In this document: piece after piece, positions 35,215 through 50,800 of the stretch | How the letters are laid out: the number at the start of each line of letters is the position of its first letter | How positions within the stretch are numbered: position 1 is the stretch's first letter | DNA from: Aurantibacillus circumpalustris | GTDB lineage: Bacteria; Bacteroidota; Bacteroidia; B-17B0; Aurantibacillaceae | DNA length: 64,000 bases | NCBI RefSeq assembly: GCF_029625215.1 | Contig: NZ_CP121197.1 | Span: 2,108,001-2,172,000, forward strand | Direction of reading: 5' to 3' | Notes under the pieces: model-generated | The model's database searches: none | What the model was told of the DNA's origin: nothing | Seen by the model: only the letters and a program-made list of their open reading frames with translations | Position numbers and translations under genes: made by a program

Positions 35215-38200
35215 TTACTTTGTTGAACTTTCTATAATAGCAATTTCTTCTTCTGTTAAATCGTAAAGTTTGTAAACTAACTGGTCTATTTCTTTTTCAA
35301 TTCTATCAATTTGATTTTTATCAGTTTCACTAGTTCTAAGTGTCACTTTTTCTATGATTTTAGCGATAGCGTTTTCATTTGCTTCTGGAATTGGGAATTC
35401 CTTAAATTTAGTTATTGTAATTTGAGGTTGCTGTCCCTTCTCAAATCTAATTATACCCGCTTTTCTGCAATACCATGTAGCAATTTTCGAATTAATAATT
35501 CCTAGTAAAAATTTAATAGAAATAATAGTTTCGTTAATTATATAAACTGTTACGTCCGAATAATGGTCAACATTATCTGAAAATGCTGCCGCTAATTTGC
35601 CATCACCTGTTAACGGCCGGCGTATCAGCAATTTTTCTTTCTTGAATTTTGTATCGTCAGCCCCTATGCTTGGGGTGCCAACTTTGTTATCCCAAATGTA
35701 TTTTTCAATATTTTTATCAAACCGAATAAAATAATTTCGCTTATTTCTTGTTTGGACTTCATTTGGATATTCAATTTGATATCTAAATATATTACCGCTA
35801 AAAATGGCAGTATGATAAGTGTCGTCAATCTTTGTTTCTGATAAAAAATAATCTTTTACTCCTCCGATATTCATGCCGGATATTAAATAGCACCAACTAT
35901 CTAGAATAGTATGATTACTTTTGATTTTTTTAATCAAATCCGAGTTTATGTCAAACTGAAAATTATAATTGTTATTTTGGTTAATGTCAGTTTGATCAAA
36001 ATCATTAGAATTTCCGTCAATACCTACTTTGTATTTAATCTTATTATTTGGCTTTTTTTCGTTTGTGTAAAAAAGCAATACCTGCCCAGATCCAACACCT
36101 TCAAATACAGATAAATTAGCTACTATTTTTTCAACGTCAATTTTTGAGAGAAGATATTTTCTAATCGGTTCAAAAGCTGGCGAAAAAATATTAATGTCAA
36201 TTATATTGGAGAAGCGGCCATTCAATTTTAATAATCTCGTAGATAGTTCTAAAAAGAGCATCACAGTGCTTAGCCTGTTTTTCGCTTTTTTATTTGTAAC
36301 AAACTCGTAGTTGTTTACATAAAATTCATACTCTTTTGGTTCAACAAATACCGCCATGCCAGAATAATAACTCAAGTATGGAGGATTACCAATTAATACA
36401 TCAAAACCAATAAACTCACCTTCATCATTCAGTACTTCTGGAAATTCAAAACGCCATTCAAAAGCGTTTTCAAAGATCTTATTAGATTTTATTTCTTCAA
36501 TTTCATTGGTGAGTTTTGCAATTTCCTTTTCTAGGTCTTTTTCCCGCTCCTTCGCTTTTTTCTTATTGCTCTCATTCCCATAAGCGGCTTCATCTTCCTT
36601 AAAAATATTTGGCGCAACCAAAACATTGTACTCGTATTGTATTTTTTGAAGTTTAATTATTTTTGGATCACGTTGAGAAATTTCACTTGTAAAATCTGAT
36701 TTAATGTCAGCAATCAGTTTTTCCATTTCCCGCTTTTGTTCTTTGCTTTCAGCATTGCGGTATGTGTCAACAGCAATTCGGTAGCTGTCAATGGTCCATT
36801 TACTTTTTCTAAGCGCTTGTTTTAAATCTGCATCAATGGCAAAACGGCTTACCAAAGAGTTACCGCATTTAATGTTAATATCGATGTTGGGAAGGGTTTC
36901 CAGTTCGGTAGTGTTTTTGTAGTATGCATTTTTTAATAATTCAATCCACAAACGCAAACGGCAAATTTTTACGGAGTTGGTGTTAATGTCTACACCAAAA
37001 AGGCAGTTCTCGATGATGGTTTGTTTTTCGTGAAACAAAGTTTCTTGAATGCGCTGGCTTTCTTTATTCGTAGGATTGTATTCAAAGAGTTCACTTTCTT
37101 CGTCAGTAACAATGAGCTCGTCGTTTACTACCTCTACATGATATTCTTTTAAGCGCTGGCCGCTGCGGTCTTGTAATATTCTTAAATCATTTTTTACGGC
37201 AATTACTTCATTAAGAGCCGAAACTAAAAAGTGCCCAGAACCAACGGCGGGGTCACAAATTTTAATGAAGTTTACAATGGCGTTGGCTTCTTTACGGTCT
37301 TCAATTTTATCATACAGCTCTTCAATGCTAGTGCAGTTCCATTTTTTTGCTTCGTTAAATTTCTGCACAACAGCTTTGCGAATGGTTTCGCGGCACATGT
37401 ACATGGTAATAAAGCCGGGTGTAAAAAAGGAACCGTCTTTGTAACCGTTTATTTTCTCAAAGATTAAACCAAGAACCGAAGCGTTAATAAGGGTTTTATT
37501 GTCTTCTTGAATTTCTTCAGAACCCTCGCTTGCAAAGTCGTAAGCGTTTAAAAATTCAAAGAGGTATTCTAAAGTGGTTAGTTCGCCAGTGCGTTTTTTG
37601 CCTTGTTCGTTTTTAAGTACCGTTGAAGAAATGAGAGGAATGGTTTTATCATCTTTTAAGTTGCTGATAAATAAAGTCAACTGTTCAATTTCGGTAGGTT
37701 CAAAAAGAGAACTGTTTAAATACGGTACTTTGTCAAAGGCTTTTTTTACATCGGCGTTTCTGTCATCGTGTTTGCGTGCTAAAACCTGAAAGAACAAACT
37801 GTTTAAATCGTCGTAGTTTTTAATCTTATCGTGATTTAAAAAAGAATACGATTTATCGCCTTTGTGATAGGTAATGAGTTGGGCTTCTAACAACTTTAAA
37901 AACAGAATACGGTTTATCCAGGTAATAGAGAGCTCAAGGCCCACCGTGAATAAACGTTCTTGCACCGTGTCGCCGTATTGTTGCGGTTTATCTAAACGGC
38001 TTAATTTATCGAGGCTGTCTAATTGAATGATGGCATCTTCTAAAATGCTTCCTGAATTTCTTGCGCCTTCTTTATTACGTTCAATAAGTTTTTTGCTTCC
38101 TTCTTTAGTCTCTGTTAAACCGATGATGTGCAATAACTCCGAATAAAAACGTTTATCGAGGCTGTTGCTGTCGTTTGTGAAGGGAAGTTTTAAAAGGTGT

Positions 38201-38898
38201 TCTGGCGAAAGTAATTTGAATAAAGCGATTAAGGAATTATCGTCTGCCTTATCATCGTTTCGCAGAGGTTTTTGATATTCTTGAATGTTGAAATAAGTAA
38301 ATTCTATTTCGGAGCTTATTGCTTCAATGAAGGGTTCAGCAATTTGTTTGTAAAAAAAGTCGGTTTTTGTATCGGCTAAACGTCCTGCTTCAAAATCAGT
38401 GAACTGTTTTACGAAGTTTTTGTTTTGAGCAAATAGTCTGTCGAAAAGCGTGGCGTCAAAAATAAACCATTCGTTTATGTTGGTTGCAACCAAGTGTTTT
38501 ACTTCGAGGTTGTTGTGGGTGATTCTTTCTCTTAAATAATAAAGTATTAATTCTTGAAATGCTTTTTTGTTAATGGCCTCTTTTGAGAGCATTTCATTTT
38601 TGTTGGTTGGCTTTTTGGCTTCAATAATTACCGCAACGGAAGTTTTTGCTGTATTCCCATTATGAATAACAAGGTCGTTACGTCCTTTGGTATTGATGTA
38701 ATGGTTTGGGTCGTAATAGGTTTTCTTTAAAAAGTCGGTTACCAGGTTTTTATGAAACTCTTCGCTTTCGGTATCGTTGGTTGTATCGAGTAGGGTAATG
38801 AGGTTAGCCTTGAAACTTTCGATTTCAGTTCTGTTGGGCTTTACTTTTAAAAAAGCTTTGTTGAGTGCCTTTTTTGGTTTCAAGGGTTTTGTTTGCAT
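35215..38898 (-). CDS. type IIG-like (Eco57I family) restriction-modification enzyme
   Basis: A 1227-residue single-chain enzyme combining nuclease, methyltransferase and specificity regions. The N terminus carries a PD-(D/E)xK-type nuclease signature: D75 in GRNDLVIHN and E93-A-K95 in VIIEAKKP. The N6-adenine methyltransferase has motif I at D549 (DPAVGSGHFL) and motif IV N838-P-P-Y841. The region after about 900 looks like a target-recognition domain and ends with a helical coil. All key motifs are intact, so it is probably active. It acts as a self-contained defence gene; its target site cannot be read from sequence. Confidence 0.9.
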   Translation of the reverse strand: MQTKPLKPKKALNKAFLKVKPNRTEIESFKANLITLLDTTNDTESEEFHKNLVTDFLKKTYYDPNHYINTKGRNDLVIHNGNTAKTSVAVIIEAKKPTNKNEMLSKEAINKKAFQELILYYLRERITHNNLEVKHLVATNINEWFIFDATLFDRLFAQNKNFVKQFTDFEAGRLADTKTDFFYKQIAEPFIEAISSEIEFTYFNIQEYQKPLRNDDKADDNSLIALFKLLSPEHLLKLPFTNDSNSLDKRFYSELLHIIGLTETKEGSKKLIERNKEGARNSGSILEDAIIQLDSLDKLSRLDKPQQYGDTVQERLFTVGLELSITWINRILFLKLLEAQLITYHKGDKSYSFLNHDKIKNYDDLNSLFFQVLARKHDDRNADVKKAFDKVPYLNSSLFEPTEIEQLTLFISNLKDDKTIPLISSTVLKNEQGKKRTGELTTLEYLFEFLNAYDFASEGSEEIQEDNKTLINASVLGLIFEKINGYKDGSFFTPGFITMYMCRETIRKAVVQKFNEAKKWNCTSIEELYDKIEDRKEANAIVNFIKICDPAVGSGHFLVSALNEVIAVKNDLRILQDRSGQRLKEYHVEVVNDELIVTDEESELFEYNPTNKESQRIQETLFHEKQTIIENCLFGVDINTNSVKICRLRLWIELLKNAYYKNTTELETLPNIDINIKCGNSLVSRFAIDADLKQALRKSKWTIDSYRIAVDTYRNAESKEQKREMEKLIADIKSDFTSEISQRDPKIIKLQKIQYEYNVLVAPNIFKEDEAAYGNESNKKKAKEREKDLEKEIAKLTNEIEEIKSNKIFENAFEWRFEFPEVLNDEGEFIGFDVLIGNPPYLSYYSGMAVFVEPKEYEFYVNNYEFVTNKKAKNRLSTVMLFLELSTRLLKLNGRFSNIIDINIFSPAFEPIRKYLLSKIDVEKIVANLSVFEGVGSGQVLLFYTNEKKPNNKIKYKVGIDGNSNDFDQTDINQNNNYNFQFDINSDLIKKIKSNHTILDSWCYLISGMNIGGVKDYFLSETKIDDTYHTAIFSGNIFRYQIEYPNEVQTRNKRNYFIRFDKNIEKYIWDNKVGTPSIGADDTKFKKEKLLIRRPLTGDGKLAAAFSDNVDHYSDVTVYIINETIISIKFLLGIINSKIATWYCRKAGIIRFEKGQQPQITITKFKEFPIPEANENAIAKIIEKVTLRTSETDKNQIDRIEKEIDQLVYKLYDLTEEEIAIIESSTK

Positions 38899-39022
38899 CT
38901 ACAATTTATATTCCACTAAGGGTGTGTTAAGATAAGTTTTTTCGTTTGATTTGGGTAGAGAACTGTGAGAAAAAAATCGGCTCGGGTAATGTGGTTTTGC
39001 GAAATGTAACACGAAAGGCAAT

Positions 39023-39250
39023 TTATTTTAGGCTATAACAATACTGGCCAACCTTGATGTGGTTGACAGTGTCGCCGAGAATTCTAAATGTACACGAGAA
39101 GTTTCCTAATTCCCAGAAAAGCATGGCACCTTTTTTATAGTGAAGATTTTTACCAATGAATTTCAAGAGGTAGCTTTCTTTTGTTCCCACAGCAATGCTA
39201 TCCCAAAGGGAAACCGCATTTGTTTTAACTTCAATTTCAGCGAATTTCTC
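39023..39250 (-). pseudogene. C-terminal fragment of an unidentified protein
   Basis: Hand translation of the minus strand gives a protein-like stretch: FAEIEVKTNAVSLWDSIAVG, then ESYLLKFIGKNLHYKK, GAMLFWELGNFSCTFRILGD and GQYCYSLK, closing with TAA at 39023. Upstream the frame merges into the LuxR fragment read on the other strand and soon meets a stop, so the N terminus is lost. Codon pattern and amino-acid composition look genuinely coding. I do not recognise the family. Confidence 0.55.
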
Positions 39251-39455
39251 ATTGAGATCTGTTCGCGAACGAGAATTTTTAAAACTAGTTTGTCACGAAA
39301 AAGAATACACCTACGAACAAATTGCCGATCAAATGAAAGTGCAGCACAGAACTGTAGATGGATACAGAGAATCTGTGTTCGATAAATTTGGAATTAAATC
39401 AAAAACGGGTCTGGTGCTTTTTGTTTTAAAGCATAATTTGTTCGATGTGCTTTAG
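39240..39455 (+). pseudogene. LuxR-type response regulator, HTH fragment only
   Basis: The C-terminal DNA-binding half of a NarL/LuxR response regulator. The pattern is REREFLKLVCHEKEYTYEQI, ADQMKVQHRTVDGYRESVFD, KFGIKSKTGLVLFVLKHNLF, as in Bacteroidota two-component regulators. The receiver domain is absent; upstream sequence instead encodes a different protein on the opposite strand. The nearest in-frame ATG (39195) lies in that foreign part. It is almost certainly a remnant. Confidence 0.75.
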
Positions 39456-39661
39456 TAATGAAGCGAGGGTGTTTTTCTAACTGTCAGTTTAAATTACGCC
39501 TACTTGATTTATAAAATGTAGTTGATAGGTTCTCTTTTTAATTTTCTAAAATTTTCGAAGTAGTATTTAAGGCATTCATTATTTAGCATCAACACCACAG
39601 CTTTTTATGTGAGAGTATTTTTGGTAAGGAATTGAGCTAGGTAAATCTCAAACCACACGAA

Positions 39662-39838
39662 CTATAATTGTTGGTTCAAGTTAAACTCCCAGTTCTTTTC
39701 CTGGTATTCGTTATGAATATCCCTGTTTTCTTTTGCAATAAATGCAATTCGTAAAAAATTAATTTTCGGTTTTTACCAATTCAATGGAACTATTAACCAA
39801 TCTGTATCGATTTTAAATAGTTTAGCCGTAAAATACTT
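39662..39838 (-). pseudogene. degenerate gene fragment with internal stop
   Basis: The minus strand encodes a 59-codon stretch: KLFKIDTDWLIVPLNW, an in-frame stop, then KINFLRIAFIAKENRD and NEYQEKNWEFNLN. It reads like the end of a real protein interrupted by one nonsense codon. The family is unknown. The rest of 39456-39947 shows nothing else. Confidence 0.4.
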
Positions 39839-39947
39839 TTAGTTTATAAGAAATACTTATTTTAATTTTAGTCTTACGAAAACCAATTATCTAAGTCCTA
39901 TAAATTACTTCAATTTTGCCTCTGATTAATTATTAAAAATAAAAGAC

Positions 39948-40679
39948 ATGAGAGGACTTACCAAAAAAATCACAAACATACTTGTTTTCCTTGGAAGTAT
40001 TTATACGTTTGATAGCTCTGCACAAATTTCTATAGGTGTTAAAACTGGCGCAAATTTTTCGCAATACAATTTTGTATTATTTGGAGAGGAGCGTTCAGAT
40101 ATTTTGAATTCTTATAGTTATGGTCTAAATATTGGAATTCCGATTGAAATTAGAATCAGTAAAGTGTACGCAATTCAATTGGAGTTAAATTATATAGGAA
40201 AGGGCGGGGATAAGTTTTGGGTAGAATACACTACTAACACTAATGGATGGGAGAGAAGAACCTCAACAATTAAAGCAAAAGTTAATTGTATTGATATTCC
40301 CCTCTTGTTTAAGCTAGGAGTGAATCGCGAAAAATTCGGTGTGAATTTTATGATTGGCCCTAGTTTTGGATTTATAATAGAAGAAGGTTTGGCGTGGAAT
40401 AATACGTACGGCAGTTCTTCTGGTCAAAATACCTCTGAAGCTGATGAAACTTCAATTAGTATTGGCGAAAAAAATTTTGTTCCCGGTTTCGACTTCGGTG
40501 TTAATGCAGGTGCTGAGCTTGCCTTCAAACTAGGTCCTGGTAAAGTATTTGCGGACTTTAGATATCAATATGGTTTTGGTGTGTGGATCGTTCCTATTAA
40601 TAGCCGTGGCATTCAAACAGTAATTGGTTATCGTATCCCACTTTCAAAATCAAAAGAATCTGAATTTGAGAAACACTAA
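39948..40679 (+). CDS. outer-membrane beta-barrel protein (PorT-like), copy 1
   Basis: A 243-residue outer-membrane protein: signal peptide, then a beta barrel that begins SIGVKTGANFSQYNF and includes FGVNFMIGPSFGFI and PGFDFGVNAGAELAFKLGPG. It ends in a strand with an aromatic-rich pattern (GIQTVIGYRIPLS). It belongs to the porin-family/PorT superfamily of small eight-stranded barrels. It is clearly homologous to the next gene, so a tandem duplication produced the pair. Confidence 0.85.
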   Translation: MRGLTKKITNILVFLGSIYTFDSSAQISIGVKTGANFSQYNFVLFGEERSDILNSYSYGLNIGIPIEIRISKVYAIQLELNYIGKGGDKFWVEYTTNTNGWERRTSTIKAKVNCIDIPLLFKLGVNREKFGVNFMIGPSFGFIIEEGLAWNNTYGSSSGQNTSEADETSISIGEKNFVPGFDFGVNAGAELAFKLGPGKVFADFRYQYGFGVWIVPINSRGIQTVIGYRIPLSKSKESEFEKH

Positions 40680-40865
40680 TAACAATGCTAATAAATACAA
40701 TTCATAAACTGAAATCCTTCTTTTCTTTTTGATTCTGAATAGTTAAAACTCTTTCTAATTAAGAGTATATAACTTACTTAGTTTAATTTTATATCTCAAG
40801 AATTAATACTTGATACGCTTCATACTTTTTAGTTTTGATTTGCGTTAATTATAAAAAACAAAAAC

Positions 40866-41576
40866 ATGAGAGCTCTTTTAAAAAAAACTGCAACGCTTGT
40901 TGTAATTATTGTATTGGTAAATTCAATTAATGTAAGGGCGCAAACTTCGATTGGAGTTAAAATTGGAGCCAATTTTGCAAAAATGAGTTTTGACGATAAT
41001 TTTGGTGTGAATGAACAAATTTCTAATTCTACTCTAACAGATATAAATGTGGGTATCCCATTTGAAATTCGTTTTAGTAAGGTAATCGCTATTCAGCCAG
41101 AGATTAATTATATTGGTAAGGGAACGTCACAGGTCGTAAAAGGTTATCAAAATAATGGAACTGAATGGGAGAGTTATGAGTCTGTATCTAAAATAAGGTT
41201 GGGTTATATGGAGGTTCCGTTTTTGCTTAAACTAGGTGTAAATAAAGAAAAGTTTGGAGTGAATGTATTACTAGGACCAAGTTTTGGGATGTTAACAAGA
41301 ATAGCTTATCAATTCGAATCAAACAGCACTAATTCTTCTGGTCAAACCCAATCTAGTTCAGACTCTGAGTCGATGCTTATTGGTAGTCAAAATTTCGAAT
41401 ACGGTTTCGATGTGGGTGCTAATTTGGGTTTAGAGTTCTCGCTACCTTTGGGACCAGGAAAATTATTCACGGAGGCAAGATATCAATATAGTAAAACCTT
41501 TTTAGATGGCACAAGCCTCACTCACATGGGTATTCAGGGTGTGATTGGTTATCGTATACCTTTTTCGGCTTTTTAA
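40866..41576 (+). CDS. outer-membrane beta-barrel protein (PorT-like), copy 2
   Basis: A 236-residue paralogue of the gene at 39948, sharing the same start (MRxLxKKxxxLVVxI-like), the opening strand SIGVKIGANFAKMSF, the block FGVNVLLGPSFGML, the phrase DVGANLGLEFSLPLGPGK, and the C-terminal strand GIQGVIGYRIPFSAF. Divergence is concentrated in the loops, as expected of surface-exposed parts. Its stop codon lies only 8 bases from a truncated GIY-YIG fragment on the opposite strand. Confidence 0.85.
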   Translation: MRALLKKTATLVVIIVLVNSINVRAQTSIGVKIGANFAKMSFDDNFGVNEQISNSTLTDINVGIPFEIRFSKVIAIQPEINYIGKGTSQVVKGYQNNGTEWESYESVSKIRLGYMEVPFLLKLGVNKEKFGVNVLLGPSFGMLTRIAYQFESNSTNSSGQTQSSSDSESMLIGSQNFEYGFDVGANLGLEFSLPLGPGKLFTEARYQYSKTFLDGTSLTHMGIQGVIGYRIPFSAF

Positions 41577-41583
41577 AAACAGT

Positions 41584-41643
41584 TTAAACGCCGATGTAAT
41601 ATTTATCGCTTGTGGGCGAGAATAAGATATAGAGATGAAACAT
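41584..41643 (-). pseudogene. truncated third GIY-YIG gene start
   Basis: Nineteen codons plus stop read MFHLYILFSPTSDKYYIGV, matching the first 19 residues of the GIY-YIG gene at 42369 ([19 protein letters not shown]). The frame then ends in TAA and the rest of the gene is missing, replaced by the end of the beta-barrel gene. The upstream terminator and tRNA-like sequence are the same as for the complete copies. Confidence 0.75.
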
Positions 41644-41651
41644 CGTAAAAT

Positions 41652-41677
41652 TAAAAAACCCGCAGTTGCGAGGTTTT
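41652..41677 (-). terminator. terminator after degenerate tRNA-like unit 2
   Basis: A CCCGCAGTTGCGAGG stem with A and T runs. It is a mutated version of the tRNA-Val terminator at 42380 and lies at the same position relative to the tRNA-like sequence. Confidence 0.6.
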
Positions 41678-41680
41678 CTG

Positions 41681-42012
<332 letters not shown>

Positions 42013-42022
42013 CTATAAAACA

Positions 42023-42050
42023 AAAAAGCCTCACATTACTGTGAGGCTTT
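42023..42050 (-). terminator. terminator after degenerate tRNA-like unit 1
   Basis: AAAGCCTCAC-ATTACT-GTGAGGCTTT perfect stem with an A-run partner on the left, directly after the tRNA-like 3' end on the minus strand. Confidence 0.85.
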
Positions 42051-42052
42051 CG

Positions 42053-42483
<431 letters not shown>

Positions 42484-43373
42484 ATTATTTTTAAAGAACA
42501 AACTTATTTCTTCGATTCAGTGACCCTCCCGACGTTAGTCGGGATGCTCTGAACCAGCTGAGCTAAGCTCCCATTATTTTTAAAGAACAAACTTGTTTCT
42601 TCGATTCAGTGACCCTCCCGACGTTAGTCGGGATGCTCTGAACCAGCTGAGCTAAGCTCCCATTATTTTTAAAGAACAAACTTGTTTCTTCGATTCAGTG
42701 ACCCTCCCGACGTTAGTCGGGATGCTCTGAACCAGCTGAGCTAAGCTCCCATTATTTTTAAAGAACAAACTTATTTCTTCGATTCAGTGACCCTCCCGAC
42801 GTTAGTCGGGATGCTCTGAACCAGCTGAGCTAAGCTCCCATTATTTTTAAAGAACAAACTTGTTTCTTCGATTCAGTGACCCTCCCGACGTTAGTCGGGA
42901 TGCTCTGAACCAGCTGAGCTAAGCTCCCATTATTTTTAAAGAACAAACTTATTTCTTCGATTCAGTGACCCTCCCGACGTTAGTCGGGATGCTCTGAACC
43001 AGCTGAGCTAAGCTCCCATTATTTTTAAAGAACAAACTTATTTCTTCGATTCAGTGACCCTCCCGACGTTAGTCGGGATGCTCTGAACCAGCTGAGCTAA
43101 GCTCCCATTATTTTTAAAGAACAAACTTGTTTCTTCGATTCAGTGACCCTCCCGACGTTAGTCGGGAGGGTCTGAACCAGCTGAGCTAAGCTCCCATTAT
43201 TTTTAAAGAACAAACTTATTTCTTCGATTCAGTGACCCTCCCGACGTTAGTCGGGATGCTCTGAATCAGCTGAGCTAAGCTCCCATTATTTTTAAAGAAC
43301 AAACTTATTTCTTCGATTCAGTGACCCTCCCGACGTTAGTCGGGATGCTCTGAACCAGCTGAGCTAAGCTCCC
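42484..43373 (-). repeat. ten 89-bp tandem tRNA-Val-derived units
   Basis: Units begin at 42484, 42573, 42662, 42751, 42840, 42929, 43018, 43107, 43196 and 43285, exactly 89 bp apart. On the minus strand each starts with the first 27 nt of tRNA-Val (acceptor 5' strand, D arm), then a CCCGAC-TAAC-GTCGGG hairpin in place of the anticodon arm, then GGGTCACTG as in tRNA. After that the T arm is lost and an A/T-rich 3' spacer leads into the next unit. Units are nearly identical, with an A/G change in the spacer and single changes in units 8 and 9. No 3' acceptor is present. Confidence 0.93.
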
Positions 43374-43387
43374 ATTTTTTTGGTGTG

Positions 43388-43418
43388 CAAATGTAGCAGA
43401 TTAAATTTAATTATTCAA
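43388..43418 (-). promoter_or_regulatory. promoter of the tRNA-like array and tRNA-Val
   Basis: On the minus strand TTG (43418-43416) is followed by 20 bases and then TACATTTG (43395-43388), a full match to the Bacteroidota -33/-7 promoter. The first tRNA-like unit starts 15 bases downstream. No comparable promoter is seen between the array and the intact tRNA-Val. Confidence 0.75.
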
Positions 43419-43431
43419 GAAAAAAATTAAA

Positions 43432-44241
43432 TTATTTTTCAGCGGCTGCTTTTTTTGCTGCTTCTTTTTCAACGTCTTCTAGACCTGAATCTGGAATCAA
43501 CATACCATCTACAAGTACACGACCGCAATGTTCGCAAACAATAATTTTTTTATTTAAACGAATATCTAACTGACGTTGAGGTGGAATTTTATTATAACAA
43601 CCGCCGCAAGCATCACGTTCAACCGCAACAACAGCTAGGCCGTTACGAGAATTTGCGCGAATACGTTTGTAAGCATTCAATAAACGATCTTCAATAGTTG
43701 AAGATGCTTGTTCACTATCTTTTGATAATTCTTTTTCTTCTTTTTCAGTTTCAGCAATAATTTCTTCAAGCTCACTTTTTTTCGCTTTTAAATCTTTGCT
43801 GCGTTCTTCAAATTCAATTTTACTTTTCTCGAGTAATTCGCCTTTAATAACGATACTGGCTTTCGCTTCTTTTGTACGCTTTTCAGCTAATTGAATTTCT
43901 AAATTTTGAAATTCAATTTCTTTAGTGATAGCATCGTATTCACGATTGTTACGCACTTTATTTTGTTGAGCTTCGTATTTTTTAATATTGGCTTGAAAAT
44001 CTTTGATGTTTTGTTTTTTCTCGTTTAACTGATTTTCAAGTTCAGCTACTTCTTCTGTAACATTAGCAAGACGTGTTTCTAAGCCTGCTACTGTATCTTC
44101 CAAATCACTTACCTCTAAAGGTAATTCACCACGAATAGTGCGTAATTTATCGATCTTGCTGTCAATTAATTGTAATTGATAAAGGTTTTTTAATTTTCCT
44201 TCAATCGAAGCATCTATTTTCTCTTTAATTTTTGCGCTCAT
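43432..44241 (-). CDS. coiled-coil protein with C4 zinc ribbon (DUF164/CdsZ type)
   Basis: A 269-residue cytoplasmic protein. Residues 15-185 form a long coiled coil (ETRLANVTEEVAELENQLNE, KKSELEEIIAETEKEEKELS). A C4 zinc ribbon follows: CGGC near residue 213, then CEHC near 237. A short Ala/Lys tail ends it. DUF164 proteins of this shape associate with ribosomes or secretion systems in other phyla; the role here is not established. It lies 4 bases after the Nif3-like gene, so it is co-transcribed. Confidence 0.88.
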   Translation of the reverse strand: MSAKIKEKIDASIEGKLKNLYQLQLIDSKIDKLRTIRGELPLEVSDLEDTVAGLETRLANVTEEVAELENQLNEKKQNIKDFQANIKKYEAQQNKVRNNREYDAITKEIEFQNLEIQLAEKRTKEAKASIVIKGELLEKSKIEFEERSKDLKAKKSELEEIIAETEKEEKELSKDSEQASSTIEDRLLNAYKRIRANSRNGLAVVAVERDACGGCYNKIPPQRQLDIRLNKKIIVCEHCGRVLVDGMLIPDSGLEDVEKEAAKKAAAEK

Positions 44242-44245
44242 AGTC

Positions 44246-45340
44246 TTAAAAATAATTTATCGGATTGGTATTAATTTTCGATAAATGGATTGCAAATGTA
44301 GTAAATTTTTTCTGAATTATATCATAAAAAATTTCTGGTGTAAATTGTTCTGATTCATAGTGTCCTGTGTCTACCAATAGAAGTGTTTTTTCAGCATCAA
44401 AGTACTCGTGGTACTTAAAATCTGAGGTTATATAAGCATCAGCACCACTAGAAATCGCGTTTTTTAACAAAAACCGACCACTTCCGCCGCAAATTGCTAC
44501 CTTTTTTATGCTTTTTTGAAGTAAATGTGTGTGTTTAATGGTAGGCACCTGAAACACTTTTTTAACATGATTTAAAAAATCTATTTCCTTTAGGGGCTGC
44601 TCAAATTCACCAATCATACCACTACCAATTAGCGCATGCTTATTATCTAATGTGTATATATCATAAGCTATCTCTTCATAAGGATGTGAGCCTAGTAAAG
44701 CAGATATAATCTTTGTTTGATTTGCGGATTCAAATAGGGTTTCAATGCGTATTTCTTTTTCTTTGCTTAATTCATTGGCTTTGCCAATAAAGGGTTTGCT
44801 TTGTTCATTACCCCTAAAAGTTCCATTACCTTCTAAATTGAAACTACATTGATCGTAGTTACCAATATTACCGGCGCCTGCAGCAAATAAAGCTCTAAGA
44901 ACGAGTTCATGATGTGAAGCGGGAACGAAACTTACAATTTTTTTAAGTAGATTTTTTTTAGGAGCGAGTATCTTTACGTTCAGTAAGCCAAGTTTTTCAG
45001 CGATTTTATTATTAACACCCAGCCTAACGTTGTCCAAATTCGTATGACAAGCATAAATAGCGATATCATTTTTTATAGCCTTAATAATGGTGCGTTCTAT
45101 ATAAGTGCTTCCTGTTATTTTTTTTAAACCGCTAAAAATAATTGGATGATGTGCGATAATAAGATTACATTTTTTCGCGATTGCTTCGTCAACAATTTCC
45201 TCGGTGCAATCCAGTGTTAACAGTGCTCCCGTGGCTTGCTCATGTCTGTTGCCGGTTAATAAACCACAGTTGTCGTAATCTTCCTGATAACTTAGTGGTG
45301 CAAAAATTTCAAGTGCGTCTATTATTTCTCCTACTGTCAT
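44246..45340 (-). CDS. Nif3-like dinuclear metal-centre protein (DUF34)
   Basis: A 364-residue member of the Nif3/DUF34 family. Metal-binding residues are visible in NLIIAHHPIIFSGLKK and YACHTNLDN, and near the C terminus in ADAYITSDFKYHEYF and LLVDTGHYESEQF. The central 140-residue insertion gives the longer form found in many bacteria. It has been linked to GTP cyclohydrolase-like or metal-insertase roles, but its activity is unsettled. It is first in a two-gene unit with the zinc-ribbon gene. Confidence 0.92.
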   Translation of the reverse strand: MTVGEIIDALEIFAPLSYQEDYDNCGLLTGNRHEQATGALLTLDCTEEIVDEAIAKKCNLIIAHHPIIFSGLKKITGSTYIERTIIKAIKNDIAIYACHTNLDNVRLGVNNKIAEKLGLLNVKILAPKKNLLKKIVSFVPASHHELVLRALFAAGAGNIGNYDQCSFNLEGNGTFRGNEQSKPFIGKANELSKEKEIRIETLFESANQTKIISALLGSHPYEEIAYDIYTLDNKHALIGSGMIGEFEQPLKEIDFLNHVKKVFQVPTIKHTHLLQKSIKKVAICGGSGRFLLKNAISSGADAYITSDFKYHEYFDAEKTLLLVDTGHYESEQFTPEIFYDIIQKKFTTFAIHLSKINTNPINYF

Positions 45341-45352
45341 AAACGTGTGGTC

Positions 45353-45385
45353 AAAAAAAATCCCCTCAAATAGAGGGGATTAATA
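45353..45385 (-). terminator. terminator after PpiD-type gene
   Basis: ATCCCCTC-AAATA-GAGGGGAT stem flanked by A and T runs, between the foldase stop and the Nif3-like start on the minus strand. Confidence 0.88.
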
Positions 45386-45392
45386 AATAAAA

Positions 45393-47603
45393 TTAATCAA
45401 TTCTGGACTTATGAAATTCGATATCCGACATTTCTTTTAAGGCATAGAATGAATCAGAATCAGCTCTTCCGTTCAATTCTCGTTCCATGTCTTTCATTTG
45501 GTTTGTGTAATCTTTCATCTCAATGTTTTTCTCAACTGAATTAACTGCCAGTACAAACACACCATTAATTCCAGTAGTTATTTTACTGAGAGCTCCAGCT
45601 TTCGTACCAATTGCAGTTCCAACCATAATATTATCAGGACCAACGCCTTCAATCGTATTTTGTTGAGCTATTAAGTCAGAAGATTTTCTCACTTCTAAAC
45701 CAAGTTTTCCAGCAATTGCTTCAATGCTTTTGTCATTACCCGCTTTATTTTTGAATTCTTCAGTAAACATTTCTGCCTTCTTTGCCTGAGTTGCCTTCAT
45801 GGTAACATCATCCTTAACTTCTTCAAGCGGAAGAAGACCTTGGTTTTTAATACCGCTTAATTTTGCAACAACGTGCTTATCCGTCATAGTAAAAATTGTA
45901 ACGTCTCCTTTGTTAGCATTAAACGCCCATTTAACAAGTTCTTTTGCGCCGTCAAGCCCAGATACTTGATAATTACCTTCTTTAATATTGTTAGCCATGC
46001 GCGGAATAAGTTTCTGAGCAACAACTGCTTTATCAAACAATTCCGCTGTGTTGTTTTCTCCAGCAAACTGATTTGCAGTTGCGAAAACACGTTGGTTAGT
46101 TTCATCGCTAGGACCAATTAATTTAAAAATTTGAGCAACCCTGTAACTGTTGTGGCGAGTTTTACTTACATCCAATACCTCAATAATATGGTATCCAAAT
46201 TGAGTTTCAACTACAGAAATATTCCCTTTACTACCCATTAAACCAGCATTTTTGAATTGTTCCACAAACCCTTCATTTTCATCAAACCAGCCATAATCTC
46301 CACCATTTGTCTTGCTTCCACCGTCATCACTGTAATTTACAACCAGACTGTCGAAAGAAACTTTTTTAGCTTTTAAAAGAACCAAAATACTGTCAGCTTC
46401 ATTCTTTGCTTGTTCTAAACTACGTTTTGGTTTTTGTTGAGCATCATTAATTCCAACAAGAATGTGACGAATTCTAGCGCTATCAGCCATAGAGTTTATG
46501 CCTTGAAGTTTGTATATTTTAAAATAAGCACCTTCGTTATAAGGACCAAAAACGGTTCCTGCAGCAGATGTAAACACGCTTGAGTCACGAATAATCATTG
46601 ATTTCTTAGTAAAATTTTGGATCATAATAGATCCATTTTCACTTTCCTGAGCCATAAAAGAACTGTCGTCTCTTACCGATAAACCTTTGAATTCAGAAGC
46701 CACACGTTGTGCATCGTTCTCAATTTCAGCAAGATCTTCCTTACTTGGTAAAACATTAAATACAACATATTCAGCACTGCGAGTTGCCTCAGAGTTCATG
46801 TATTGGTAAGAATGTTCTTTGTAATATTTTTGAATATCAGAATCCGTAACCTTAACCACAGTATCACTCACTGAATCAAAACGTTTTATAATATAAGAAA
46901 GTTCTCTTTTTTGATTTTGATTTTGATAGTTTTGTTTTGCTTCTGCCTTTGTAACGTAAAGACCTTTTGTTATTAATGCTCTGAACTTTTCAAAATAACG
47001 AGAGTCTTTTACCTGCTCTTCCATACTACGAACCGCCATTTCATTTTCTCCAGTTACGTTTTGTACTGCCTGTCTCCATTTTAATGGGTCAAGTGAACCA
47101 TCCGGGCGCGAAAATTGTTCGTTTATCTTACCAGTATTGGGATCAGTTAAGTTCTGAATAATTGATTGAGCAGGGTTTACAACAACACTTTCATAAAGCT
47201 CATCATCTCCAACCGCAATACCGATTTTATTAAACTGTGGTTTCATAACCAGGTCAATAATGTACTGTTGCCAAATGCCCTCAATTACCTGAGTTTTAGT
47301 AGATTCATCAACATCACGACCTTGATTTCTTTGACGGTAGTTGTTTAACTGGTTTTCGAATTTCATTAGAAATTCGTTCCTGTCAATTTTTTTACCATTG
47401 ATAGAACCGGCATAATTCAAATCACTTCCACCAAAAATGGAAGCCCCTGAACCTAAAAGACTTTCTAAAATAAAAATTAAGAGGGCAACTCCTACTATAG
47501 AGACCAGTAAACCCGTTCTTCTTCTGATTTTTTCTAGAACAGACACCTGTTCTTTTTTTCTTTCTGTATCAACTTGTTGCTGAACGTTTTTTTGCTTATT
47601 CAT
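45393..47603 (-). CDS. PpiD/SurA-type periplasmic peptidyl-prolyl isomerase
   Basis: A 736-residue inner-membrane-anchored foldase. One N-terminal membrane segment (RTGLLVSIVGVALLIFILES) is followed by a SurA_N-type chaperone region (DVDESTKTQVIEGIWQQYII), a parvulin domain in the middle (ARIRHILVGINDAQQ ... SDDGGSKTNGGDYGWFDEN ... ETQFGYHIIEVLDVSKTR) and a second helical/PPIase-like region. It should help fold outer-membrane and secreted proteins as they leave the Sec channel. It has its own promoter and terminator. Confidence 0.92.
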   Translation of the reverse strand: MNKQKNVQQQVDTERKKEQVSVLEKIRRRTGLLVSIVGVALLIFILESLLGSGASIFGGSDLNYAGSINGKKIDRNEFLMKFENQLNNYRQRNQGRDVDESTKTQVIEGIWQQYIIDLVMKPQFNKIGIAVGDDELYESVVVNPAQSIIQNLTDPNTGKINEQFSRPDGSLDPLKWRQAVQNVTGENEMAVRSMEEQVKDSRYFEKFRALITKGLYVTKAEAKQNYQNQNQKRELSYIIKRFDSVSDTVVKVTDSDIQKYYKEHSYQYMNSEATRSAEYVVFNVLPSKEDLAEIENDAQRVASEFKGLSVRDDSSFMAQESENGSIMIQNFTKKSMIIRDSSVFTSAAGTVFGPYNEGAYFKIYKLQGINSMADSARIRHILVGINDAQQKPKRSLEQAKNEADSILVLLKAKKVSFDSLVVNYSDDGGSKTNGGDYGWFDENEGFVEQFKNAGLMGSKGNISVVETQFGYHIIEVLDVSKTRHNSYRVAQIFKLIGPSDETNQRVFATANQFAGENNTAELFDKAVVAQKLIPRMANNIKEGNYQVSGLDGAKELVKWAFNANKGDVTIFTMTDKHVVAKLSGIKNQGLLPLEEVKDDVTMKATQAKKAEMFTEEFKNKAGNDKSIEAIAGKLGLEVRKSSDLIAQQNTIEGVGPDNIMVGTAIGTKAGALSKITTGINGVFVLAVNSVEKNIEMKDYTNQMKDMERELNGRADSDSFYALKEMSDIEFHKSRID

Positions 47604-47633
47604 TATTTTAGATTACAAATTTTTTAAGACTTG

Positions 47634-47641
47634 CAAAGATA
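47634..47641 (-). promoter_or_regulatory. -7 box upstream of PpiD-type gene
   Basis: TATCTTTG on the minus strand, a full TAnnTTTG match 30 bases before the start codon. Confidence 0.55.
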
Positions 47642-47846
47642 GTAGTTTAGGTGAAATAGAAAAATGCATCTGCTAAATGTATTTAACTGAAAATAAACGA
47701 AATACAATCTTTGCGCCTTTATTAGGCCTAAAATTGCAACAAAATTCAAACTTTGCATTTTTTTCAACACTTAAAAAACAAGCAATATTAAATTCTTAAA
47801 TTTATTCGATTCTTAAATTGACCTTAATCAATACGATATTCTACCT

Positions 47847-50800
47847 ATGTTCTTAATTTTTGACACCGAAACAACAGGTTTACCAAGAAATTATAACGCT
47901 CCTGTTTCTGATTCTGACAACTGGCCGCGCATGGTACAAATTGCTTGGCAGTTGCACGATGCACAAGGCAATTTATTAGAGAACGATTCAATTATTGTAA
48001 AACCAGAAGGCTACTCCATTCCTTTTGCAACCATTCAAATTCATGGTATCACTAACGAAAGGGCTAATGAAGAAGGAAGGAATTTAAAAGAAACACTACA
48101 AAAGTTTAGCGAAGCGGTTGCCAAATCAACGTATTTATGCGGACATAATATTGAGTTTGATATTAATATTATTGGTGCTGAATTGTTTCGTTGCGGGATA
48201 GAAAATCTTCTTGAAACTAAAGCTAGTATTGATACTAAAAACGATCAAACAACCGAATTTTGCGCAATTTCCGGTGGAAGAGGGGGTAAATTTAAATGGC
48301 CAACCTTAACCGAATTACATCAAAAGCTATTTAATAAAGGTTTTGATGAAGCTCACAATGCGGCGTTTGACGTTGCGGCTACCGCTAAAGTGTTTTTCGA
48401 AATCATTAAACGGGGTATTACCAAAGTACGTGAAATTACCTCAGAGCTACTACCACTATTAAATTACCAAGCACCCGATTTTTCTGAATTAGCAAAGCAC
48501 GAAGCGTATTGGCGAGAAAGAAAAACTCTCGAAGAGAAACAAAGAGAAGAATTAAAAAAGAAGGAAGAGGCAGAAAAGAAAGTTAATGCAGGAGAAGCAA
48601 CTCATGCGGGTGCTTCTCATTTCAATTTTAGTCATTTACATAACCATACTCAGTTCTCTGTACTACAATCTACAAGTGATGTTACATCTCTTGTGGCTAA
48701 AGCGCTAGAGTTCGGAAGTCCCGGCGTAGCGCTTACCGACCATGGTAATATGTACGGCGCATTTTTATTTTGGAAAGAAATAGATGGGCAGAATAAAAAA
48801 ATAAAAGAGCACAATGCCACTCTCGCTGAGGATGCAGAAAAGAAACAAGAGTTAAAGTGTATAATCGGTTGTGAGGTAAATATTTGTGTTGATCACAAAG
48901 ACAAAACAAAAAAAGATAACGGTAACACACAGGTTTTAATTGCCAAGAATAGAAAAGGTTACGAAAATTTATGCCGCATTAGTTCTATTGGTTTGATAGA
49001 TGGAGCCTATTATGTTCCAAGGATTGATAAGGATATACTTGAAAAATATAAAGAAGGATTAATTGCAACAACAGGCTCATTAAATTCTGAAGTGCCATAC
49101 ACAATTATTAATCTTGGTGAACAGCAGGGTGAAGCGGCATTCTTATGGTATAAAGAACAATTTGGCGAAGATTTTTATGTAGAAATAAACCGTCAGTATC
49201 AAACCAAAGATGAAGAGTACGCTAACGAAAAATTATTAGCATTCGCGCGAAAACACAATGTGCCTTATTTTGCAGCCAATAGTAATTATTACATTGATAA
49301 AAAAGGTTCTGAAGCGCATGATATTTTATTGTGCGTTAAAGATGGAGAGAAAAAAAGTACAGCTGTTGGAAAAGGTAAAGGTTTACGCTACGGTATGCCA
49401 AATCAGGAATTTTATTTTAAATCTCCGGCAGAAATGGCGGTACTTTTCAAAGATCTTCCTGAAGCCTTGCACAACACCAATCTTATTGTAGATAAAATTG
49501 AACAATTCAAATTAGGTCGGGAAGTTCTACTTCCAAAATTTGAAATAGCACAAGATTTTATTGATGGAAAAAAAGAAGAGATTGATGCGTCATTTCAAAG
49601 AATTGTTGCGTCAAAAGAAAAACAATGGCAGGAAAAAAATTACAGCGATGTCGTAATTAATGACCTTAAAGCTGAGATGCGGATTATTGCTGAACAGTTT
49701 GTTTACATGACAGAGTTAACATACATCGGCGCAGCAAAACGTTACCCTGATTTAACGCCTGAAATTAAAGAACGCATCGATTTTGAATTAGCTACTATTG
49801 AAAGAATGGGATATCCCGGTTACTTTTTAATTGTAGCCGATTTTATTAGTGAAGCTAGACGTTTAGGCGTTTCCGTTGGTCCGGGACGTGGATCGGCTGC
49901 TGGTTCTGCGATTGCCTATTGTTTAGGAATTACAAATGTAGATCCCATTAAGTTTGATTTACTCTTTGAGCGTTTCTTAAATCCAGATCGTATTTCAATG
50001 CCCGATATTGATATTGATTTTGATGATGAAGGTCGTGGCAAAGTAATTGATTATGTAATTAATAAATACGGATCTAACCAGGTTGCGCAAATTATTACCT
50101 ATGGAACAATGGGCGGTAAGTCTGCCATCAAAGATACAGCAAGGGTTTTAGACTTACCTCTTGATGATGCGAACCGTCTCACAAAAATGTTTCCAGATAG
50201 TTTAGATGCTAAACTAAAAGCATTATTAAAGCCAGGAGGAATTGATGTAAAATATTTAGGCAAGATAGAAGGCAAACGCGAGGTCATTGATCAATCACAC
50301 ACATTCAGAAAATTAGCAGAGGAAAAAACGCCAGAAGCCGACGTTTTAAAACAAGCCTACGAATTAGAAGGTTGCTTGCGTAACACGGGTATTCATGCTT
50401 GCGGCGTTATCATCACACCGGGTGAAATGGTGAAGTACGTTCCTGTTACAAAGGGAAAAGAAAGTGAAATGCTCGTAACCCAATTTGATAACTCTGTGGC
50501 AGAAAGCGCCGGTTTATTAAAAATGGACTTTCTTGGCTTACGTACATTAACCATTATTAAAGATGCCATCTCTTTCATCAAACAAACAAAAGGCATTGAA
50601 ATTGATATTGACGCGATTTCTCTTGAAGATGAAAAGACCTACGAACTTTTTCAACGTGGTGAAACCAACGGTATTTTCCAGTATGAAAGTGCTGGAATGC
50701 AAAAATCTTTGAAGGAATTAAAACCCGATGCATTCACTGATTTAATTGCAATGAATGCACTTTACCGTCCGGGTCCTATTGCATACATTCCTAATTACAT

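Follow-up and report, generated by a model that had tools for sequence, protein, structure and literature searches.

Introduction

Several described systems share parts of the architecture reported here. Integrative elements in tRNA genes have flanking partial tRNA copies, type III toxin-antitoxin systems (ToxIN) carry tandem repeats, a terminator and a nuclease in a row, and REP palindromes are small palindromes tied to one protein family, the RAYT proteins, which are tyrosine transposases. The locus described below resembles each of them in one respect, since partial tRNA copies flank it, since repeats, a terminator-like hairpin and a nuclease also follow one another in it, and since its small palindromes are linked to one protein family. 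It differs from integrative elements in that only GIY-YIG open reading frames (ORFs) and no integrase lie between the tRNA and the element end, and from ToxIN in that the repeats do not accompany every nuclease (33 of 80 close loci) and the nuclease belongs to another family (Pfam reports GIY-YIG only and PADLOC gives no ToxN-type toxin). It differs from REP/RAYT in that the protein is of the GIY-YIG type, the palindromes lie inside tRNA copies, and the tie to dispersed palindromes is weak. The single-domain GIY-YIG proteins of the UPF0213 group (PDB 1zg2, 1ywl), which we take to be YhbQ-like, have size, fold and sequence in common with the nuclease; we know of no link between these proteins and tRNAs or palindromes, and none was found in the open-access literature.

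In behaviour, the closest system is SegB of T-even phages, a free-standing GIY-YIG homing endonuclease. In the available part of one report, this enzyme, whose gene sits in a tRNA cluster, causes a stretch of DNA that contains a tRNA to be amplified in tandem, and the segB 3' end and the tRNA 5' end share microhomology (PMC13096335). The accessible portions of two reports place free-standing GIY-YIG genes beside tRNA genes of many isotypes in phages (PMC13096335, PMC2988022). At the locus analysed here a free-standing GIY-YIG gene also lies beside a tRNA gene, the 3' end of its first nuclease ORF likewise enters tRNA sequence, a tandem amplification would have taken place, and, as in SegB-like homing, presence and absence alternate at a fixed site (seven loci with, ten without, one that cannot be told). 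The differences from SegB are that the present element is chromosomal in Bacteroidota, encodes a one-domain protein of about 80 aa for which a search of 50,697 phage records (E 1e-4) gave no match, carries palindrome-disabled tRNA copies, and has amplified units that are not working tRNAs. Searches of the open-access literature, with most subscription journals outside their scope, found no description of chromosomal tRNA-linked GIY-YIG elements, and no open-access paper contained any of the five palindrome strings tried.

Results

Anatomy of the tRNA-Val locus

The window, meaning the whole stretch of 64,000 nucleotides that was analysed, comes from Aurantibacillus circumpalustris. On its minus strand the locus reads, in order, as TACATTTG, ten repeat units, tRNA-Val(TAC), a terminator-like hairpin, GIY-YIG ORF 1, a first 3' tRNA-Val copy, a terminator-like site, GIY-YIG ORF 2, a second 3' tRNA-Val copy and the start of a broken third ORF. 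Its features in window coordinates are as follows.

43432-44241, minus strand: conserved zinc-ribbon gene, upstream and outside the element, marking the orthologous site in the genus
43388-43395, minus strand: TACATTTG, a Bacteroidota-type -7 promoter-like site before unit 1 (motif match)
42484-43373, minus strand: ten tandem 89-bp units feeding into tRNA-Val(TAC)
43328-43345, minus strand: palindrome (hairpin) of unit 1, recurring each 89 bp in units 2-10
43107-43195, minus strand: unit 3, with a palindrome 5 bp longer (unit-by-unit comparison)
42408-42483, minus strand: intact tRNA-Val(TAC) (ARAGORN and Rfam)
42379-42407, minus strand: hairpin followed by a T run behind tRNA-Val, terminator-like by eye and unflagged by the terminator scan
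42091-42369, minus strand: GIY-YIG nuclease ORF 1, 92 aa (Pfam), its 3' end reading into the pseudo-tRNA
42052-42124, minus strand: 3' pseudo-tRNA-Val copy 1, with palindrome TCCCGATCCGTAGGATCGGGA at 42083-42103 and the T arm and acceptor 3' strand kept
42024-42051, minus strand: terminator-like site after pseudo-tRNA 1 (terminator scan)
41764-42012, minus strand: GIY-YIG nuclease ORF 2, 82 aa, 89% identical to ORF 1 over 79 aa
41680-41766, minus strand: 3' pseudo-tRNA-Val copy 2, in which both the D loop (41743-41760) and the anticodon arm (41711-41731) hold a palindrome
41584-41643, minus strand: start of the third, broken GIY-YIG ORF (72% identical stretch)

The original prediction, a tandem array of ten 89-bp units derived from tRNA-Val, was confirmed by TRF (period 89, 10.4 copies, 98% matches, zero indels, span 42456-43381) and by unit-by-unit comparison. 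Each unit is built from the leading nucleotides of tRNA-Val (nt 1-28, where 27 had been counted), the hairpin TCCCGACTAACGTCGGGA, GGGTCACTG, an altered T arm and an A/T-rich spacer. The units had been said to lack the T arm and the 3' acceptor strand; the T stem 3' strand and the acceptor 3' strand are indeed absent, but most of the T arm 5' strand is kept and forms, with the tRNA variable region, the segment GGGTCACTG. Beyond what had been noticed before, the anticodon arm is not merely lost from the units; it is exchanged for a perfect hairpin, TCCCGAC-TAAC-GTCGGGA (7 bp, 18 nt). Five of the ten units (1, 4, 5, 7 and 10) are identical to the consensus, and the others depart from it at nt 19 (unit 2), at nt 26, 28 and 67 (unit 3) or at nt 67 only (units 6, 8 and 9), with one to three differences each. 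The expectation of recent amplification or homogenisation was right. The palindrome of unit 3 is longer because its two changed flank bases match its own opposite arm.

ARAGORN called none of the units as a tRNA, nor did Rfam at its gathering threshold, and tRNA-Val was the sole Rfam match in the whole window. The pattern CATCCCGAN{2,14}TCGGGAGGG occurs 11 times in the 4.6-Mb genome, always at the tRNA-Val locus, and its reversed control never, which excludes chance for the units; all 13 matches to a unit query in this genome also fall at that locus. The array thus consists of ten copies of the front half of the valine tRNA gene, amplified and disabled.

The expected position of the array, between a promoter-like site and the tRNA, was borne out by same-genus loci free of the array (e.g. 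G002, G018 and G006), where such a site lies directly before tRNA-Val. Since the promoter-like site abuts the tRNA in these simplest empty loci, the array sits between leader and tRNA, with the nuclease part after the tRNA. The array is probably transcribed as a leader of tRNA-Val. That the promoter before the first unit is the only one is insecure, because TAnnTTTG, which we take to be the Bacteroidota -7 box, is matched both by TACATTTG and by the spacer TAAGTTTG of six units (1, 2, 4, 5, 7 and 10), and its count in the window is at chance level (97 seen, 100 expected). The hairpin after the real tRNA had likewise been called the only terminator; terminator-like sites follow both downstream sets too, in a scan whose count is itself at chance level (2 found against 2.1 expected). 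Read by eye, the nuclease-free same-genus loci L013, L014 and L017 have a short leader hairpin of differing sequence just before tRNA-Val.

The palindromes of the two 3' copies are related to that of the array units, yet different from it. The acceptor 3' strand is missing upstream, and in the downstream copies the 5' strand is lost or altered; neither kind of copy looks able to make a normal tRNA. A tRNA-Cys (anticodon aca) called by ARAGORN at 41680-41756 was rejected as false, being the palindrome-bearing tRNA-Val remnant of 3' copy 2. Doubtful calls of this type were seen at related loci as well, such as Glu at L039, Ile at L043 and Cys at L116.

The encoded nuclease

ORFs 1 and 2 matched the Pfam GIY-YIG family PF01541 with 60.6 and 64.1 bits (cut-off 22.6), and among 43 family members Y5, Y16, G18, R27 and E63 were invariant; four of these, Y5, Y16, R27 and E63, correspond to the conserved catalytic Tyr, Tyr, Arg and Glu of the GIY-YIG superfamily. 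A profile search with the nuclease matched two UPF0213 structures, and an AlphaFold model (pLDDT 78) matched PDB entries 1zg2, 6seh (Slx1, with branched DNA), 1ywl and 1ln0 (the catalytic domain of I-TevI), the best with an E value of 1.3e-3 and a probability of 1.00. The protein is a single catalytic domain of the GIY-YIG superfamily, and an NCBIfam search with it returned no family. Its ORF is free-standing between tRNA and pseudo-tRNA, outside any intron or intein; the two GIY-YIG ORFs are the only ones of at least 60 aa between the tRNA and the element end, and the ORF list for 38000-48000 contained no integrase gene within 41584-43373. Beside the element lie two adjacent similar ORFs, of which 39948-40679 matches outer-membrane beta-barrel families and 40866-41576 looks by eye like a paralogue, and a 1227-aa ORF with an NPPY motif at 35215-38898 resembles, by eye, a restriction-modification enzyme.

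Presence and absence at one site in the genus

The zinc-ribbon gene is followed by tRNA-Val in all 18 same-genus loci at hand. A nuclease lies 25-40 nt after the tRNA in seven of them, a proportion that is no frequency because carriers were deliberately included; ten are without it, and one (G036) cannot be told, since its sequence stops 53 nt past tRNA-Val in a possible ORF start. The seven carriers have 10, 3, 2, 1, 1, 1 and 0 upstream units, and the other 11 loci have no full unit, with decayed-looking remnants seen by eye in G034 and G036. Three palindromic copies make up the upstream array of the same-genus locus L039. Identity to the window nuclease ranges from 69 to 84% in six genus carriers and that of the zinc-ribbon neighbour from 85 to 90%, and the two do not track each other. 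Of 40 genus genomes, 12 gave a nuclease match at E 1e-15, in some of them at other sites; G002 and G006, for example, have no nuclease at tRNA-Val and a match elsewhere in the genome.

A family of nuclease genes beside tRNA genes

The A. circumpalustris genome contains two further members, beside tRNA-Ala(GGC) and tRNA-Arg(TCT), each with a palindrome-bearing tRNA copy. The Ala-linked member (G000:C1:760351-760608; L023) has a tRNA copy with TCCCGACTCGGGTCGGGA in place of the anticodon loop, and the Arg-linked member (G000:C1:897276-897530; L025, L191) has D-loop palindromes of the form CCTGCCTGCCG..GGCAGGCAGG in copies on both sides.

A contig scan with the window nuclease, a Val-type query, gave 113 relatives, of which 80 were kept as loci; these close loci include L057, L075 and L083, which carry titles of other phyla and are perhaps misbinned. 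Among the 247 genomes of the class, 63 held relatives of the Ala-linked protein and 32 held relatives of the Arg-linked one; these searches contributed 59 loci (L162-L220). The 142 loci, less the duplicates L181, L217 and L025, left 139 distinct loci for counting, many of them in metagenome assemblies whose contigs break off close to the repeats. Where a host order was stated (55 loci), 52 belonged to Cytophagales, Chitinophagales, Flavobacteriales, Sphingobacteriales or Bacteroidales.

Among the 139 distinct relatives, 90 have a tRNA call at most 130 nt upstream on the same strand and 18 have one at most 220 nt downstream; in 15 the call is farther away, six lie at a contig edge, and ten have none. 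Direct adjacency to a tRNA thus holds for 108 of 139, or about 103 once L057, L076, L090, L114 and L116 are removed, these being at least the loci in which the adjacent call looks like a palindrome-bearing copy and not a true tRNA. The 108 adjacent calls comprise 62 for Val, 10 each for Ala and Arg, six for Ser, five each for Met and Leu, two each for Asn and His, one each for Lys, Asp, Phe and Cys, and two unnamed, so that ten or more other amino acids are present beside Val, which dominates in a tally that is tilted towards it, as the 80 close loci derive from a Val-type query.

Two layouts recur, one running intact tRNA, terminator, nuclease, 3' tRNA copy and the other 5' tRNA copy, nuclease, intact tRNA. 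Palindromic tRNA copies were found upstream in 33 of the 80 close loci and not in the other 47, some of which are cut by contig ends; in 26 of the 80, 5' units run into the tRNA or the next unit. Upstream arrays of palindromic copies occur elsewhere, with seven in L109, four in L055 and three in L104, and downstream tandems of nuclease and pseudo-tRNA recur with periods mostly of 327-379 bp. The strict Val-type hairpin pattern was found in 17 of 395 genomes of the phylum, with no match of the reversed control in any row. A plasmid search gave three matches only, all distant, and together with the lack of a phage match this means that no vector was seen.

Palindrome families follow nuclease classes

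Nucleases were assigned to val, ala and arg classes, which are best matches to the three A. circumpalustris proteins and not named families, and palindromes to family A (TCCCG) or family B (CCTGCC) by a rule written after the sequences had been seen. Under that rule, all 70 distinct loci with family A palindromes have a val- or ala-class nuclease and all 16 with family B an arg-class one; one val-class locus (L186) is mixed, with both families, and 52 of the 139 are unlabelled, including the arg-class loci L210, L213 and L219, in which TCCCGA-like repeats are present. On a nuclease tree built by a quick method from about 79 residues (one protein of fewer than 60 residues left out of 142, duplicates included), palindrome family required one change over 88 labelled rows, against at least 12 in 200 shuffles. 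The amino acid of the tRNA required 18 changes over the 77 of these rows with such a call, where shuffles gave at least 29; it is therefore more clustered than chance, and it switches more often than palindrome family does. Host order required 24 changes over 55 rows (shuffles at least 27, mean 31), at most a hint of transfer. Within single genomes, five of the 11 listed were labelled for both classes, and all five keep the rule, the A label of one (G556) resting on a weak palindrome; this speaks against host background as the cause of the association.

Among 79 distinct family A hairpins, not all independent, stem pairs 2, 6 and 7 change jointly on both sides, and pairs 6 and 7, which the hairpin search rule did not require, are paired in 76 and 77 of 79, G-T included. 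A palindrome extension copying the opposite arm, as in unit 3, was seen in another genome (L105), and among 138 copies at other loci extensions of at least two pairs occurred in three, namely L100, L105 and L103, although that of L103 is probably just the arm of a normal tRNA. Concerted changes of the kind seen in unit 3 and L105 are a known mark of hairpin-templated repair, so that the palindrome probably extrudes in DNA.

The flanking copies match the tRNA of their present host. The 3' 30-mer of the local tRNA is copied with at least 24 of 30 positions in 39 of the 57 Val loci that have enough sequence, perfectly in 12 of the 57, where shuffled 30-mers reach 17 at most. In 34 of these 39 loci the copy fits its own host best, in three it ties and in two it fits worse, which indicates that the element carries or keeps exchanging a host tRNA end, as repeated recombination predicts.

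Discussion

The reading that we favour, as probable though some way from secure, is that the tRNA-Val(UAC) gene houses a chromosomal GIY-YIG nuclease element of homing-like character, which belongs to a Bacteroidota-wide family located beside tRNA genes of many kinds. It may spread or amplify by recombining with tRNA genes. The ten-unit array is best read as the 5' tRNA remnant of this element, one part of something larger and not a stand-alone feature. The element would consist of a nuclease ORF, a clade-specific palindrome inside partial host-tRNA copies, and an intact tRNA kept within. Its nuclease would work on DNA within or close to the palindrome or the tRNA sequence, and repair of the break via tRNA homology on either side would insert, remove or multiply parts of the element and, by recombination, allow it to enter tRNA genes. 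The array may have grown by recombination between tRNA-derived direct repeats, and the 28-bp direct repeat common to units and tRNA could serve both its growth and its loss. The tie of nuclease class to palindrome family suggests that the palindrome, or the form it takes when extruded, is what the nuclease recognises. Several points weigh against this scheme. Should the nuclease target the tRNA itself, the intact copy would have to be protected; no vector was seen; the strict Val-type pattern is uncommon in the phylum; upstream copies were found in fewer than half of the close loci; tRNA type is clustered on the nuclease tree; and the palindrome families were defined after the sequences had been seen.

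The array could instead be passive debris, a palindrome-bearing half-copy of tRNA-Val expanded by slippage or unequal crossing-over with the nuclease gene uninvolved. Near-identical direct repeats are what such a process leaves, tandem repeats expand unaided, and an upstream copy was not found in the 47 close loci mentioned above, contig ends cutting some of them; six of the seven genus carriers nonetheless have upstream units, the other 11 loci lack any full one, and the palindrome family goes with the nuclease class. We regard this explanation as unlikely.

It seems more doubtful still that the units are an RNA device, transcribed as tRNA-like decoys or as an RNA antitoxin for the nuclease in a module of repeats, terminator and toxin. 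The order of promoter, repeats, tRNA, terminator and nuclease does resemble the type III toxin-antitoxin layout, the hairpin stem pairs change together, and the folding of the unit RNA surpasses that of 200 shuffled versions (z -3.4). In the available part of a survey of the GIY-YIG superfamily, tRNA comes up in two references and in a remark on a TrmH fusion, and a possible role in RNA metabolism is suggested for a prokaryotic relative of Slx1 that carries a fused TrmH domain (PMC1564403). Against such a device, upstream copies accompany only the 33 close loci noted above, and PADLOC returned one weak match, to UzuA, at E 0.011. The D loop can pair with the altered T arm, with a combined p of 0.002 over 22 units that are not independent, but this pairing is significant alone in four of the 22. 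A general fold of the unit RNA was considered and rejected: in the window unit the spacer pairs with the 5' acceptor strand, but acceptor-like pairing of this kind did not hold generally across the 27 loci that were folded. The structural relatives of the nuclease that have been characterised, Slx1 and I-TevI, act on DNA.

A regulatory leader, with repeated units whose GTTCTTTAAAAAT spacers tune or antiterminate transcription of tRNA-Val, is very improbable in our view, even though the array lies between a promoter-like site and the tRNA. The GTTCTTTAAAAAT motif, which we take to resemble boxA, has ten matches in the window, all inside units; there are ten because the units are repeats, which counts against a regulatory meaning, as do the lack of this spacer in most of the other arrays compared and the 11 of 18 genus loci without a full unit. 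The suggestion that the array acts by itself, as a decoy or a regulator, is unsupported; the array forms one side of an element that also includes a GIY-YIG gene and tRNA copies at its 3' side. An assembly artefact in unit copy number is hardly credible: long identical repeats can be miscounted, but the variants at nt 19, 26, 28 and 67 are interspersed, the genome is one contig, and arrays occur in other genomes too.

A bolder extension of the favoured reading, towards which we are more sceptical than convinced, would make the locus an example of an undescribed class of chromosomal mobile element, in which a minimal GIY-YIG nuclease and its cognate palindrome colonise tRNA genes of many isotypes throughout Bacteroidota, disable the flanking copies, keep a working tRNA inside and amplify their arms into arrays. 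With the working copy held inside the element, loss by recombination between the outer repeats would be lethal. If this were true, many of the small GIY-YIG genes of Bacteroidota for which nothing beyond the domain is known would be tRNA-gene parasites with a recognisable anatomy and a clade-specific palindrome, and tRNA-linked amplification of the SegB type would extend from phages to bacterial chromosomes. False tRNA calls and arrays of tRNA pseudogenes would be explained as well, and the compact pair of nuclease and palindrome would offer a specificity that is directly testable.

Similar palindromes are also dispersed in these genomes. Leaving aside the tRNA-Val and tRNA-Ala loci, that of A. 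circumpalustris has 19 palindromes of the form TCCCGAN{2,10}TCGGGA, including four with the exact sequence TCCCGATAGCTATCGGGA, and this 18-mer occurs in 71 of the 247 genomes of the class, with up to 30 per genome. Its presence is weakly tied to that of the nuclease, with an odds ratio of 3.9 for the arg class and 2.0 for the palindrome-matching class. The idea of the nuclease as a general spreader of dispersed palindromes was dropped, since the association is weak and reaches its highest value in the class whose own palindrome is the other one. Elsewhere in the same genome, a more distant GIY-YIG ORF (L024; G000:C1:1141462-1144689) has no tRNA and lies amid many copies of the interspersed repeat TTCCTTCGGGTTTGTTCTTTACACGCGGTTGCCTCGGAATGACGG.
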